Of a stretch of DNA of 34,287 nucleotides, positions 11,519 to 17,079 are shown piece after piece. The notes under the pieces are model-generated. The model was not told the origin of the DNA and made no database searches. It was given only the letters and a program-made list of their open reading frames with translations. The translations under genes and the position numbers were made by a program. The DNA is from Ignavibacteriota bacterium. GTDB taxonomy: Bacteria > Bacteroidota > Ignavibacteria > UBA10030 > UBA6906. How positions within the stretch are numbered: position 1 is the stretch's first letter; each line of letters starts with the position of its first letter. The stretch spans positions 1-34,287 of the forward strand of contig PMJR01000035.1 in the NCBI GenBank assembly GCA_003158475.1, in the 5' to 3' direction.

Positions 11519-12820
11519 TCACGATTCCATGAGGAACTCTTTCACTTCTTCGAATCCGGCGGGGAGTTTTACCGAATGCTTCTCCCCCTCCATGAGGTCC
11601 CGGAGCCTTCCGGGGACTTCGATCGATCCCCTCATCCGGGGGTCGTACACATCGATGAACTTCGCCGGATGGGCAGTTTCGAGCACGATGCCGGTGAACT
11701 GCCCCCGGTTTCCGGCCCGGTATTTTCCAAGGGCAGAGTAACCGACTGCCCCGTGAGGATCGAGCACATAGCCGTACCTGGTGAACGCTTCCGCAATCGC
11801 TTCCCGCGTCCCTTGATCCGTACAGGAGGCCGCGTACACCGCCTTCCGCAGCGCCCCGATATCGCCGTCAAAGAGCGCGCGTATTCTCGGGAGATTTCCG
11901 GGATCGCCGACGTCCATCGCGTTGGAGAGCGTCGTGACCGTGCGCCCCGGGGAGTAGACTCCCGTCTCGAGGTAGCGGCCGACAACGTCGTTCGCGTTTG
12001 TCGCAGCGATGAACCGCTTCACCGGAAGCCCCATTTTCCATGCAATGAGCCCGGCCGTCAGGTCCCCCAGGTTTCCGCTCGGCACGGAAAAGACGATCCC
12101 CCGGTCCCTTTCGGCCAGACGTGCAAACGCGTTGAAGTAGTAGAAGGTCTGGGGAAGGAGCCGTGCAACATTTATCGAGTTTGCCGATGTGAGGTTCCTC
12201 CCGGCGGCAAGTTCCCGGTCCGCAAATGCCTCTTTGACGAGCCGCTGGCAGTCGTCAAACGTCCCGCCGATCTCCAGGGCGCTGACGTTCCCCGAGAGGG
12301 AGGTGAGCTGGCTCTCCTGTATCTGGCTGACCCTCCCCGAGGGATACAGCAGGACCACGGACACCCCCGGCATCCCGTGGAATGCACTGGCCACCGCGCT
12401 CCCCGTGTCACCCGACGTAGCCACAAGGACCGTATAGGCGTCCCTGTCCCCCCTGTGTATGTATGCCATCATGCCCGCCATGAATCGCGCCCCGAAATCC
12501 TTGAACGCAAGCGTGGGCCCGTGAAACAGCTCGAGCACCGCAGTCTCGTCGTCCAGCCGGCGGAGCGGCGCGTCGAACGTTATCGCGTCCGCGACGATCT
12601 TTCTCAGATCCGGCTCCGGAATCTCCCCGCCGAGGAATATGCGTGCGACTTCGAAAGAGATCTCCGGGAACGCGAGGCTTCCGATTCTGCGCAGGAACTC
12701 CGGCGAACAAACGGGGATGGCCGCGGGGATGAAGAGCCCCCCGTCATCCGGGATCCCCCGGCGGACCGCCTCGGCGAAAGAGACGGAGATCCGCGGGTCT
12801 TTTGTGCTGCAGAGATTCAT
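11519..12820 (-). CDS. thrC: Threonine synthase
   Basis: This PLP enzyme converts O-phosphohomoserine to threonine. The protein of 433 aa starts MNLCSTKDPRISVSFAEAV, and the family motif RGIPDDGGLFIP follows. The PLP lysine lies in GPTLAFKDFGARFM near residue 107. LVATSGDTGSAVASAF is the phosphate/PLP-binding loop and FSVPSGNLGDLTAGLIA is the second glycine-rich block. The start ATG overlaps the thrB stop as ATGA, so a longer frame beginning 57 nt upstream inside thrB is rejected. It is the third gene of the thrABC operon. Confidence 0.96.
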   Translation of the reverse strand: MNLCSTKDPRISVSFAEAVRRGIPDDGGLFIPAAIPVCSPEFLRRIGSLAFPEISFEVARIFLGGEIPEPDLRKIVADAITFDAPLRRLDDETAVLELFHGPTLAFKDFGARFMAGMMAYIHRGDRDAYTVLVATSGDTGSAVASAFHGMPGVSVVLLYPSGRVSQIQESQLTSLSGNVSALEIGGTFDDCQRLVKEAFADRELAAGRNLTSANSINVARLLPQTFYYFNAFARLAERDRGIVFSVPSGNLGDLTAGLIAWKMGLPVKRFIAATNANDVVGRYLETGVYSPGRTVTTLSNAMDVGDPGNLPRIRALFDGDIGALRKAVYAASCTDQGTREAIAEAFTRYGYVLDPHGAVGYSALGKYRAGNRGQFTGIVLETAHPAKFIDVYDPRMRGSIEVPGRLRDLMEGEKHSVKLPAGFEEVKEFLMES

Positions 12821-13749
12821 GAAATGACCCTCGCCCCCCGGGCCCCGACGCGCGAAACCAGCGTCGCATACAGGCAACCCATTTCCTCGAGAACATTTCC
12901 CATGGCGATAACGATTTTTCCGGCCTCATCAGGTGACGAGGCAAGTGCAAAGAGTGACGGCCCCGAACCGGATATCCCGCACCCGAGGGCCCCGTGCGCG
13001 AGTGCGGCTTCTTTCATCCGTGCGAAGCCCGGTATGAGATGCGCCCGGACCGGTTCCGCGATCACGTCACGGAGCGAACGGCTGATCAAGGGGAAGTCCG
13101 CGGTGAACATCCCCGCGATAAGCCCCGCCGCGTTCCCGGTCTGCGTTATGACATCTTCCAGGGGGATGACTTTCGGGAGTATTTTCCTCGCATGAGCGGT
13201 TTTGATCTCGACCTGCGGCGAGATCACGGAGCACCAGAGCGACTCCGGGACGCTGATGGGAACAATGTCGATCGGGTGGTAGCCCCGGACAAGAACAAAA
13301 CCGCCCCGGAGGCAGGGGGAGAGATTGTCCACATGGACCGCCCCGCTGGCGATCTTCTCCCCTTCGATTGCCAGTGCAAGGAGCTTCTCCGGGGGAAGGT
13401 TCGTCCCGAGCAATGCGTCGGCGGCGACAACGGCGGCGACCGCGCTCGCAGCGCTCGAGCCGATCCCCCCGCCAACAGGAATCCCCTTGTGTATGTCGAT
13501 CTCAAGGCCCGTGCCGGGGGCGCATTCCCGGAGGAGCGCGATAACAGGGGGCCCGGCGGTGTTGGCGGAGGCTTCCGGGGGGAGTGGAGACCTGCAACCT
13601 GTAATCCTTCCAATCGTGACCCCGGGCCGCGTGCTGAACCTGGCGGTGACAGTGTCGCCGGCCCCCTCGAGTGCAAACCCCATTATGTCGAATCCGCAGG
13701 AGACGTTGGACACCGACGCCGGTGCGAACGCAGTGACTTCATTCCCCAT
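12817..13749 (-). CDS. thrB: Homoserine kinase
   Basis: This GHMP-family kinase phosphorylates homoserine with ATP, feeding threonine synthase. The N-terminus TAFAPASVSNVSCGFDIMG is the family start. The ATP-binding GHMP motif is GIPVGGGIGSSAAS near residues 88-101. The C-terminal GCGISGSGPSLFAL is the third GHMP motif. The length of 310 aa is normal. One nucleotide separates its ATG from the thrA stop codon, and its stop overlaps the thrC start by ATGA, so translation of thrA, thrB and thrC appears coupled. Confidence 0.96.
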   Translation of the reverse strand: MGNEVTAFAPASVSNVSCGFDIMGFALEGAGDTVTARFSTRPGVTIGRITGCRSPLPPEASANTAGPPVIALLRECAPGTGLEIDIHKGIPVGGGIGSSAASAVAAVVAADALLGTNLPPEKLLALAIEGEKIASGAVHVDNLSPCLRGGFVLVRGYHPIDIVPISVPESLWCSVISPQVEIKTAHARKILPKVIPLEDVITQTGNAAGLIAGMFTADFPLISRSLRDVIAEPVRAHLIPGFARMKEAALAHGALGCGISGSGPSLFALASSPDEAGKIVIAMGNVLEEMGCLYATLVSRVGARGARVIS

Positions 13750-13750
13750 G

Positions 13751-16207
13751 TCAGCCCTCGTGGTACGATATTCGGATGATGTCCGCCAGGACGCCCGTTG
13801 CCGTGACGTCGGCCCCGGCCCCCGGGCCTTTGATGACGATCGGCTGGTCCCTGCAGTTGGCTGTCGTCAGCGCGATGATGATATCGCTTCCTGAGAGTGC
13901 GTAGCAGGGGTTTTCCGGGCCGACCCGCTCGAGGGACACCCCTGCCTTCCCCCGGGAGAACGATGCGACGTAGCGGAGGACCTTTCCTTCTCCGGAGGCG
14001 GCGTCCCGTTCACGGGCATACGCAGCGTCCAGGGCAGGGAGTCTTTTCAGGAATTGATCCGCGGTCCCCCCGTGCCGGAGGGTCCGGGGGAGCAGCGGCT
14101 TCACGCTGATGTCCTTCAGCTCGAGCGGGTGGCCGGACTCCCTGGCCAGTATCAGGAGCTTCCTCCCGACGTCCGAACCGTTCAGGTCGTCCCTCGGATC
14201 GGGTTCGGTATACCCTTTCCTGCGGGCCTCCCCGACAACCTCGGCGAACGACCTTCCGGCGGTGAACGTATTGAAGATGTAGCTCAGCGTCCCGGAGAGG
14301 ACCCCGTCGATCCGGAGTATCCTGTCCCCCCCCGCGATGAGATCGTTGATCGTGTTGATGATCGGAAGACCGGCGCCGACATTCGTTTCGTACAGGAACC
14401 GGACGTTGTGACGGAGCGCGGCCCTGTGCAGCCGTTCATAGAGCGCATAGCCGCCGGCATTTGCCTTCTTGTTCGGCGTGACGATGGAGATGCTGGATTC
14501 GAGTATCGTTTCATACTGTGCCACGAGCGCATCGCTCGCCGTGCAATCGACGAAGACGCTGTTGGGGAGGTTCATATCCCTCATGCGGCGGACGAATGCG
14601 TCGAGGTTCATCGCCGTGCTCCCCCGGCCCATTTTCTTCCGCCACTCCCGCGGGAGGGAAGCGTTTGCGTCGAAGATCATCTCCCGGCTGTTGGCCACAG
14701 CCTCGACGCGCACGTCGAGGGACTGGACGCGCAGGAGGAACTCCCGCTGGGCGGCGATCTGCCTGAGCAGGGCTCCCCCGATGAGCCCCGTCCCGACGAT
14801 AAACAGGTGGAGCGATTTTGTCCCCGAGAGGAAGAACGCGTCGTGGAGCGCGTTCAGCGCCTTCGCCTCGTCCGCCTTGTCCACGATCGTGGAGATGTTC
14901 AGCTCGGAAGAGCCCTGCGCAATGGCGACCACGTTGATGCCGTTCCTCCCGAGCGCCTGGAACAGCGTTCCGGAGATCCCCGTTTTCTTGCGCATATTCC
15001 CGCCGACGACGGCCACCGCCGAGAGGTTCCTCTCGATCACCACGCTGTCGATCTGGTGGTCACGGATCTCAAACCGCAGCTCATTCTCGATCAGCCGCTT
15101 GGCCGCGGCCGAGGCTCCGGGAAGGACAGCAAGACAGAGGGAGTATTCCGACGACGCCTGCGTGACCATGAGGACATTGATCTCCTCCTCCGCCAGCGCG
15201 CTGAAGATGCGCTTCCCGATGCCGGCAATCCCCGTCATGCCGCTCCCCTGTATCCTCAGGAGCGCAACCTCGTCGATCGAGGAGATCCCCTTGATCAGGA
15301 ACCGGTCCGACGTATTCCGCTTGCCGATCAGCGTCCCCTCGAAATCCGGGTTGAACGTGTTCCTGATCCTGATGGGGATATTCCTGTCGAGCGCCGGCTG
15401 CATCGTGGGGGGATGAATGACCTTCGCGCCGAAGTGGGACATTTCCATCGCCTCTTCGTAGGTCATCCGCGAAATGGAAAACGCCTTCTCGACCTTCCTG
15501 GGGTCCGCCGTCATCACCCCGTCCACGTCCGTCCAGATCTCGATCTCCCGCGCATTGAGCGCGGCGCCGAAAATCGAGGCGGTCAGGTCCGAACCGCCCC
15601 GCCCTATGGTCACGGTATCGTTGTCCGTCGTCGAGGCGATAAACCCGCAGGCGCATTGCAGTCCCCGGTGCTTCTGGAAATGCTGCCGTATCAGGTGTGA
15701 GGTCAGGTCGTGCTTGAGCTTCCCCGCGCCGAACGTGTCGTCCGTCTTGATGAGAGTCCGGCTGTCGATATACCCGCAGGGGACGCCGGAAGCGTTCAGC
15801 GCCTCCGCGATAATGGATGTGGAGAGTATCTCCCCGAAACTCATCGTGTAGTCGAGCGTCCTGGCTGTCAGTTCTTTGGTGAAAAGGACCCCGTGGAGCA
15901 CGTTGGAGAAGTCGGCCAGTTGCTCACGGACGAATTTCTCCCCCCGCCGCCTCGCACGCCCGGGGACGAGTTCCGCGAGAGCCCGCAGATGCCGGTCCCG
16001 TATCTGCTTGAGTCCCCCCAGGTATTTTCTGTCCCCGCGCGAGGCAAGCCTGCTCGTGGCGATGATCTGGTCCGTGATCCCCTCGAACGCGGAGAAGACG
16101 ACGACAAGGTTCCGGTGGCGTGCCCGGGCCCGGGCGATGATCTTCATGACGTTCCGGACCCTGTCCGGGGTGCCGGTGGAGGAGCCGCCGAATTTCATAA
16201 CGTGCAT
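13751..16207 (-). CDS. thrA: Bifunctional aspartate kinase / homoserine dehydrogenase
   Basis: This fused enzyme catalyses the first and third steps of the Asp-to-Thr pathway. The 818-aa protein begins MHVMKFGGSSTGTPDRV, the aspartokinase signature. TIGRGGSDLTASIF and EIWTDVDGVMTADPR complete the kinase domain in the first 290 residues. Two ACT-like regulatory segments follow: one around ALLRIQGSGMTGIAGIGKRI, and one around VAVVGGNMRKKTGISGTLFQA. They suggest allosteric feedback, probably by threonine. The homoserine dehydrogenase domain starts near residue 470 with FIVGTGLIGGALLRQI and contains NKKANAGGYALY and GGDRILRIDGVLSGTLSYI. The ATG is preceded by AGGGGA at a suitable distance. The SD sequence lies directly after a terminator-like hairpin in the leader, so transcription into thrA is probably attenuated. 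Confidence 0.97.
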   Translation of the reverse strand: MHVMKFGGSSTGTPDRVRNVMKIIARARARHRNLVVVFSAFEGITDQIIATSRLASRGDRKYLGGLKQIRDRHLRALAELVPGRARRRGEKFVREQLADFSNVLHGVLFTKELTARTLDYTMSFGEILSTSIIAEALNASGVPCGYIDSRTLIKTDDTFGAGKLKHDLTSHLIRQHFQKHRGLQCACGFIASTTDNDTVTIGRGGSDLTASIFGAALNAREIEIWTDVDGVMTADPRKVEKAFSISRMTYEEAMEMSHFGAKVIHPPTMQPALDRNIPIRIRNTFNPDFEGTLIGKRNTSDRFLIKGISSIDEVALLRIQGSGMTGIAGIGKRIFSALAEEEINVLMVTQASSEYSLCLAVLPGASAAAKRLIENELRFEIRDHQIDSVVIERNLSAVAVVGGNMRKKTGISGTLFQALGRNGINVVAIAQGSSELNISTIVDKADEAKALNALHDAFFLSGTKSLHLFIVGTGLIGGALLRQIAAQREFLLRVQSLDVRVEAVANSREMIFDANASLPREWRKKMGRGSTAMNLDAFVRRMRDMNLPNSVFVDCTASDALVAQYETILESSISIVTPNKKANAGGYALYERLHRAALRHNVRFLYETNVGAGLPIINTINDLIAGGDRILRIDGVLSGTLSYIFNTFTAGRSFAEVVGEARRKGYTEPDPRDDLNGSDVGRKLLILARESGHPLELKDISVKPLLPRTLRHGGTADQFLKRLPALDAAYARERDAASGEGKVLRYVASFSRGKAGVSLERVGPENPCYALSGSDIIIALTTANCRDQPIVIKGPGAGADVTATGVLADIIRISYHEG

Positions 16208-16216
16208 GGCAATCCC

Positions 16217-16259
16217 CTGAAATGAGAAAGACCGGCTTCAGGTCGCTGAAGTCGGTCTT
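16217..16259 (-). terminator. Putative attenuator terminator hairpin upstream of thrA
   Basis: On the minus strand AAGACCG-A-CTTCAG pairs with CTGAAG-C-CGGTCTT around a CGAC loop: 13 base pairs with one A/C mismatch. A U-rich stretch (UCUCAUUUC) follows. It lies between a Thr-rich leader frame and thrA, and ends about 10 nt before the thrA SD sequence. The U-tract is interrupted, so termination efficiency is uncertain. Confidence 0.75.
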
Positions 16260-16318
16260 CCGGAGTGACAATAGGATGAGCCAACCTCAACCGTCCAATG
16301 CGGGGGACGTAGGGGTTG
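16246..16318 (-). promoter_or_regulatory. Mutually exclusive leader structures (1:2 hairpin and antiterminator) of a thr attenuator
   Basis: Two further pairings compete with the terminator hairpin. Hairpin 1:2 forms from CAAC and CGTCC (16315-16318, 16305-16309) with GGACG and GTTG (16292-16296, 16288-16291). Its 5' arm coincides with the leader codons ACA ACC CCT ACG, three of them Thr. The antiterminator 2:3 pairs UUGAGGUUGG (16281-16290) with CCGACUUCAG (16246-16255): ten consecutive pairs, three of them G-U. The antiterminator consumes the 5' arm of the terminator. By analogy with enterobacterial thr attenuation, a ribosome stalled at Thr codons would block strand 1, release strand 2 and allow readthrough. 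This is inference from pairing, not from data. Confidence 0.7.
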
Positions 16319-16364
16319 TCGGAGGGTGCGAAAGCGTGAAGCGATATGTGCTCATCGGCATCAT
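16287..16364 (-). CDS. Putative threonine-rich leader peptide of the thrABC operon
   Basis: This 25-codon frame reads MMPMSTYRFTLSHPPTTPTS then PALDG and a TGA stop. Five of the 25 residues are Thr, three of them clustered as TTPT over the 5' arm of the first leader hairpin. The stop codon falls at the start of the antiterminator strand and 27 nt before the terminator hairpin, which is the geometry of amino-acid attenuators. The start is uncertain: the same frame also offers ATGs at 16361 and 16355, and one at 16382 that would add six codons. None has a good SD sequence, which is the main weakness. No homology is claimed to enterobacterial ThrL; the resemblance is functional architecture. Confidence 0.6.
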   Translation of the reverse strand: MMPMSTYRFTLSHPPTTPTSPALDG

Positions 16365-16388
16365 GAAATCAACGTAGCACATTCGTGC

Positions 16389-16416
16389 GTCATAGTCAAA
16401 TCACCGTTCGAATCAA
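16389..16416 (-). promoter_or_regulatory. Candidate sigma70-type promoter for the thr operon
   Basis: TTGATT, a 16-nt spacer, then TATGAC on the minus strand. Each hexamer matches four of six consensus positions. Transcription would begin near 16382, a few to about 18 nt before the leader peptide start. The match is modest. Confidence 0.35.
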
Positions 16417-16518: not shown

Positions 16519-17079
16519 GTGAGCGTACAGCCCAGAATGCTCGATCATGCCTTTTACAGGGCCTGGATGAACGGCGAAGTCCCCCTCGGGACGCTTGCCG
16601 CCTACCACAGATCCTATCACGAGTTCATCAGCCGTATCCCCGCCTACTGGCAACGCGTTGTGGATGCATTCCAGCCTGGTGAGACGGGAGAACATCCCGT
16701 CGTACGGGAAGAACGTTTCCACATACTCCTCTGGGAGAAGTGGGGGCGGCGACTGGCACCCCCCGATTCGTTCCCGCGTCTCGACTCCCTCCTCGACTCC
16801 CTTGACGCCATGACCCCTTCCGGGCTTCTCGGGGCGCTGCAGGCATTTGAGGTGCAGCAACCCGAAGTCGCACGGACGAAGAAGGAGGGGCTGATCCGTC
16901 ATTACGGGTTCAGGAGCGAAGACCTCACCTATTTCGACGAGCACCAGAAGGAGGAGGGACACATCGCCTTCGGTGCGGGACTCGCCTCACGGTTCGCGGA
17001 TCAGGGAGAATTTGCGGCGGGCATCGGGCGGGGAGCATTGCTCTGTTTCAACAGCCTCGACAGTTTTGCGGCGCCGTGA
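16519..17079 (+). CDS. CADD/PqqC/TenA-like heme-oxygenase-fold protein
   Basis: This is a 186-aa all-helical protein. MLDHAFYRAWMNGEVPLGTL and AAYHRSYHEFISRIPAYW match the start of the CADD/TenA/PqqC heme-oxygenase-like fold. RFHILLWEKWG, FEVQQPEVARTKKEGL and YFDEHQKEEGH supply candidate metal-ligand residues: His68, Glu111, Glu141 or His142, Glu145 and His148. CADD-type members are non-heme dimetal proteins implicated in p-aminobenzoate (folate) synthesis, where the protein itself is the pABA source. That role here is only a hypothesis, and PqqC/TenA-type activity is possible. The last ligand block (HxxEExH) is one residue shorter than the HxxxDxxH I recall for CADD. The GTG start is preceded by AGGGAGG with a 5-nt spacer. 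It is divergent from the thr operon. Confidence 0.75.
   Translation: MSVQPRMLDHAFYRAWMNGEVPLGTLAAYHRSYHEFISRIPAYWQRVVDAFQPGETGEHPVVREERFHILLWEKWGRRLAPPDSFPRLDSLLDSLDAMTPSGLLGALQAFEVQQPEVARTKKEGLIRHYGFRSEDLTYFDEHQKEEGHIAFGAGLASRFADQGEFAAGIGRGALLCFNSLDSFAAP

Follow-up and report, generated by a model that had tools for sequence, protein, structure and literature searches.

A predicted threonine attenuator upstream of thrABC in the class Ignavibacteria

How thrABC is controlled is the question raised by a short leader frame and a set of alternative hairpins that lie upstream of the operon in an Ignavibacteriota genome. The window, meaning the whole stretch of DNA that was analysed, is 34,287 nucleotides long, and all three genes downstream of the leader in it are threonine synthesis genes (thrA, thrB and thrC by NCBIfam). 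By ThrA the closest named relatives are metagenome assemblies called 'Ignavibacteriae bacterium' (88-94% identity). On the other side a divergent gene begins at 16519 (+), so the thr promoter is expected within a gap of 310 bp; this neighbour (16519-17079, +) gave a weak match to a haem-oxygenase-like or CADD-family protein.

The leader frame and its start

Judging from the sequence and its relatives, we consider it highly probable that a ribosome-mediated transcription attenuator controls thrABC and senses charged tRNA-Thr, perhaps also tRNA-Met. The predicted promoter, the leader frame and the 2:3 and 3:4 helices are supported by comparison; that the leader is translated, that ribosomes stall on it, that transcription ends early and that amino acid supply decides the outcome is what we infer. 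Transcription would start at about 16367-16364 and the leader would be translated from its extreme 5' end. With ample threonine the ribosome would reach the stop codon inside strand 2 and cover this strand, and the 3:4 terminator would form ahead of thrA. If Thr-tRNA runs low, stalling of the ribosome at the Thr codons would leave strand 2 free; free strand 2 would then pair with strand 3 once it is made, the terminator would be blocked and thrABC would be transcribed. The features on which this model is built are collected in Table 1.

Table 1. Coordinates of the thr leader and of the operon in the window.
Feature	Position	Strand	Basis or remark
Promoter, Bacteroidota type	16370..16400	-	TTTGAC 16400-16395, 18 nt, TACGTTG 16376-16370; predicted from sequence and relatives
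Leader peptide ORF MMPMSTYRFTLSHPPTTPTSPALDG, then stop; 25 codons, five Thr	16287..16364	-	conserved frame, stop and near-leaderless start; start probable
Leader Thr codons	16349-16347, 16337-16335, 16319-16317, 16316-16314, 16310-16308	-	
Leader extra Met codons	16361-16359, 16355-16353	-	
Leader stop TGA	16289-16287	-	inside strand 2
Strand 1 / strand 2 pairing, proposed antiantiterminator	16283..16320	-	Thr codons with GGUUG; weakest part
Strand 2 of antiterminator, UUGAGGUUGG	16281..16290	-	100% identical in sister species
Strand 3, CCGACUUCAG	16246..16255	-	common to antiterminator and terminator 5' arm
Terminator-like hairpin 3:4	16228..16259	-	AAGACCGACUUCAG-CGAC-CUGAAGCCGGUCUU, about -20.6 kcal/mol
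Weak U-tract CUUUCUCAUUU	16220..16230	-	overlaps stem base
Shine-Dalgarno-like AGGGGA of thrA	16213..16218	-	sequence
thrA, bifunctional aspartate kinase / homoserine dehydrogenase I	13751..16207	-	NF006959, 983 bits; ATG at 16207
thrB, homoserine kinase	12817..13749	-	NF002288, TIGR00191 above cut-off
thrC, threonine synthase	11519..12877, start uncertain	-	TIGR00260 above cut-off

The first-pass annotation of this DNA had described a Thr-rich short frame on the minus strand at this place, and the frame is there and is kept in relatives. Its start had been set at 16382, from where the longer frame 16382..16287 (-) translates as MCYVDFMMPMSTYRFTLSHPPTTPTSPALDG, but the likely start lies 18 nt further downstream. 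In sister species the ATG at 16382, which here stands shortly before the -7 element, is either lacking or in another frame. The start that is conserved, 16364 (or 16361), lies 5-6 nt past the -7 element; sister species keep the promoter and such an ATG, and retain the leader frame, the stop and the near-leaderless start. The leader start is probably 16364, not 16382. A TTTGACA / TAnnTTtG pair precedes the leader in relatives too, and the position of the promoter implies that the leader transcript would have hardly any sequence before its start codon. Since this would be so, the missing Shine-Dalgarno sequence at the leader, listed earlier as a weak point, is no strong objection.

Alternative helices and the output of the predicted switch

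The 10-bp alternative pairing between strands 2 and 3 that had been proposed is present (three of its pairs are G-U), and it covaries in relatives. In 31 of 32 family sequences the pairing of strand 2 with strand 3 is clearly stronger than in shuffled sequences, the exception being L041; the Stouffer z versus shuffles is -14. For 16 dissimilar representatives the mean of the 2:3 duplex was -18.1 kcal/mol when matched versus -14.7 kcal/mol when reassorted, and none of 20,000 reassortments of strand 2 and strand 3 was as good, either for the 32 sequences or for the 16 representatives. In the first alignment terminator and antiterminator were each paired in about 91% of cells, versus about half after a slide of one column. 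In an alignment of 27 sequences the values were 89% for the terminator and 90% for the antiterminator, with changes on both sides at five and three pairs, respectively. Most telling is base 16252: whether it is A or G goes together with U or C at its strand 2 partner and, for the majority of lineages, at the strand 4 partner as well, which is the pattern expected for a base common to two helices.

The earlier description of a 13-bp terminator hairpin was right as to the 13 pairs, but these are formed around one A.C mismatch (A16252.C16235), and the U-tract that follows is weak in the genus of the window. The mismatch recurs across several lineages, as if it were an intermediate between A-U and G-C that preserves the antiterminator. 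That the antiterminator and the 5' arm of the terminator use the same bases, and so exclude each other, had also been claimed and is supported both by covariation and by folding. The two states had been expected to have comparable energies: when strand 1 was masked and strand 4 was not yet made, the antiterminator formed (-20.1 kcal/mol), and when strand 2 was masked, the terminator formed (-21.7 kcal/mol). As long as strand 4 is missing, folding favours the antiterminator even if strand 1 is unmasked, so that in the absence of a ribosome a terminator is not predicted to form at once.

The 1:2 hairpin, said to have its 5' arm on three of the Thr codons, does exist, but in the window it is no stronger than the codons force it to be: encoding the peptide with randomly chosen synonymous codons gives hairpins of much the same strength (z +0.4). 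Whatever base stands third, Thr (ACN) and Pro (CCN) codons can largely pair with GGUUG. Across the 16 representatives the 1:2 helix had a Stouffer z of -3.5 versus synonymous codons, and 0 of 20,000 reassortments were as good. Because the 1:2 helix, the ribosome-free fold and the U-tract are weak in the window, we infer the direction of the switch from the architecture and from the relatives.

On the 3' side of the terminator-like hairpin, UUCUCAUUU and then AGGGGA (16218-16213) lead to the ATG of thrA. An intrinsic terminator with a U-tract is clear in most relatives, whereas in the window genus the U-tract is weak and interrupted, with a T-tail score of 3.66 versus 5.3-7.1 in most relatives; the interruption had already been named as a weak point, rightly. 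Given the interrupted U-tract and the A.C mismatch, termination in the window genus may be inefficient. The weak U-tract would suit a switch with the same leader and the same alternative hairpins whose output, at least in this genus, is translation or RNA stability, and so would a hairpin that ends about 20 nt ahead of the thrA ATG. We regard such an output as unlikely. The relatives retain full U-tracts, the distance from hairpin to start codon in them ranges from tens of nt to about 140 nt, and neither state hides the Shine-Dalgarno-like AGGGGA, since it lies outside both helices.

It is less likely still that the window genus holds a decayed attenuator, an unresponsive relic. The weak U-tract and the A.C mismatch could be read as decay, as could the few clustered Thr codons that the sister L031 has within the critical stretch. 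Against this, strands 2, 3 and 4 are 94-100% identical within the genus versus 37-60% for the intergenic and upstream flank, and such conservation of the core amid drifting flanks indicates purifying selection. Moreover, the A.C pair is present alongside better U-tracts in L129, L136 and L165.

A codon-blind search and the wider family

A covariance model, R1, was built from strands 2 to 4 of 15 training sequences. It begins 10 nt before the leader stop and is therefore blind to the leader codons. The search covered 391 genomes of the class Ignavibacteria and 395 genomes drawn from the phylum. In the class, all 24 matches of at least 44 bits precede thrA, thrB or metY (13 of the 24 lie outside the training set), and each of them has a short leader ORF with matching codons, which R1 could not see. 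Most class matches below about 40 bits resemble ordinary terminators, with L136, L167 and L176 as true exceptions, so that counting genomes at E 0.01 gives too high a figure. Matches outside the class (28-41 bits) were treated as chance, those inspected having no codon-rich leader ORF in the right place.

The Thr-rich leader frame was found in about 30 relatives, and its end point is unchanged even where thrA identity is as low as about 50%. Among the 16 dissimilar representatives, Thr accounts for 96 of 320 codons in frame (30%) versus 10 of 320 (3%) in each other frame, and stop codons are absent from the leader frame versus 9 and 18 in the other two. Examples upstream of thrA in Ignavibacteria are MITLIMCTTTTTMTPSGG, MKNKKFTYKPVSCITTTTTTTPTGMPGG and MKSEKINITVSTMMYTTTTTTPTAYSG. 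The predicted element is widespread but patchy across the class. The first-pass annotation had looked to relatives for compensatory changes in the stems together with a conserved Thr-rich frame; the leader frame and the 2:3 and 3:4 helices bear this out, but the 1:2 stem is weak.

A metabolite-binding riboswitch or a protein-binding leader is highly improbable: nothing specific speaks in its favour, even a threshold of E 10 brings up no Rfam family, and conservation falls on an ORF and on two mutually exclusive helices, with codons that track the downstream gene. Taken alone, the window is suggestive, with strands 2:3 at z -3.2, and it is the comparative data that firm up the attenuator. A chance meeting of a Thr-containing short frame with an ordinary terminator-like hairpin, which the window-only values would tolerate (a marginal p of about 0.06 for five Thr among 24 codons of open frame; whole leader folding somewhat better than shuffles, z -2.3; a 1:2 helix that is not special), is hardly credible when relatives do share the leader frame and the compensating helices and all comparative results are contrary.

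Sensing of threonine by the leader codons had been the original proposal; the Thr frame is borne out, but the Met codons and the wider family had been missed. In thrA leaders Met makes up 7.4% of the residues after the start (p 3e-10 versus an assumed 2.5%, in a set that is not phylogenetically independent), and the extra Met codons fit a thrA that serves both Thr and Met. The same core stands before a separate thrB (L127, L132, L138); in L132 and L138, cases within the same family in which thrB and thrA are not together, thrB is preceded by a Thr leader of its own. It also stands before a stand-alone homoserine dehydrogenase, with Thr and Met codons (L167, L194), and before metY, which encodes O-acetylhomoserine sulfhydrylase, with Met codons (MSMWMCMMIPLGS in L120 and MTLNSAMWMCMIMMFPQGS in L122, both from one family). 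The best match of the metY leaders is the thrA leader of another genus of the same family (L041/L125), in which TGACGTCGGCTGCG is identical, and it scores above 2,000 shuffles. By sequence this suggests that the metY leader is a recoded copy of a thr leader. In other genera a SAM riboswitch often precedes metY instead (L238, L239, L240, L250, L253). Met-rich ORFs ahead of metY are not general, with one among 39 loci screened besides the two found by the model. At L241 a Met-rich leader ORF before metY has the same plan as the leaders of cysK.

Upstream of cysK, leaders with Cys-rich stretches were found at 13 of 30 loci (L261, L262, L263, L265, L267, L271, L272, L278, L280-L283, L288) versus 0.22 expected from shuffles. 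In those leaders that were read, the terminator is of the GCCCUUCC type and the ORF contains a GGAAGG-like complement; the cysK leaders are apparently Cys attenuators. Another type of Thr-run leader lies upstream of stand-alone aspartate kinase in L027, L028 and L029; each of the three has RALSC close to its end, and the terminator, GAAGCCTCG...CGAGGCTTTTTT, is of another kind.

We hold it possible, if on balance slightly doubtful, that Ignavibacteria possess a re-codable attenuator. A conserved strand 2-3-4 switch would carry Thr codons before thrB, Thr and Met codons before thrA and the stand-alone homoserine dehydrogenase, and Met codons before metY, where a recoded copy would replace the SAM riboswitch of other genera; Cys-run attenuators of similar plan would serve cysK.

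Relation to known attenuators

By its anatomy the predicted thrABC element would be a classical attenuator, with a 1:2 pairing and a U-tract that are weak in the window. It resembles enterobacterial thrL (E. coli; Rfam RF00506 Thr_leader) in its Thr-rich leader peptide, in the mutually exclusive antiterminator and terminator, and in the thrABC operon. Unlike thrL, the Ignavibacterial leader has its stop inside strand 2, is probably almost leaderless and follows a predicted promoter of the Bacteroidota type, and its second enriched codon is Met, whereas that of thrL is Ile. The covariance model of RF00506 had no match in the window or in the genome, so by model the element is not a member of Thr_leader, and descent from a gammaproteobacterial leader is not supported. 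Of the idea that the same control evolved or was inherited in this lineage, what stands is an element of the class Ignavibacteria. The thr leaders of Bacteroidota (L068, L072, L073, L086, L092) likewise have a Thr-rich ORF ahead of thrA, but with Thr and Ile codons and an ITTITTTITG-like end, and they are unmatched by R1. In these leaders, from Cytophagales and other Bacteroidota, a strongly conserved ATTACGGGGTAGC lies at the stop codon.

The 2004 study of Vitreschak and colleagues is said to include threonine among the regulated operons and Bacteroidetes/Chlorobi among the groups named, and Met control of thrA was reportedly predicted there in Pasteurellales. For threonine-operon attenuators, Vitreschak et al. 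2004 (FEMS Microbiol Lett 234:357) is the work cited in PMC1262725. As such attenuators were predicted earlier, the Ignavibacterial element adds a member to a known kind of control. The papers covered by a literature search contained no description of the Ignavibacterial element.

It would be unusual for methionine to be sensed via translation, as by a metY leader whose Met codons stand where a SAM riboswitch is found elsewhere. Experimental knowledge of classical attenuation comes mostly from Proteobacteria, and the predicted elements would make it a control that recurs across a class of mostly uncultured bacteria. As one switch is represented by about 30 natural versions that can be aligned, both sequence comparison and reporters can address how attenuators arise and how they change the amino acid that is sensed.
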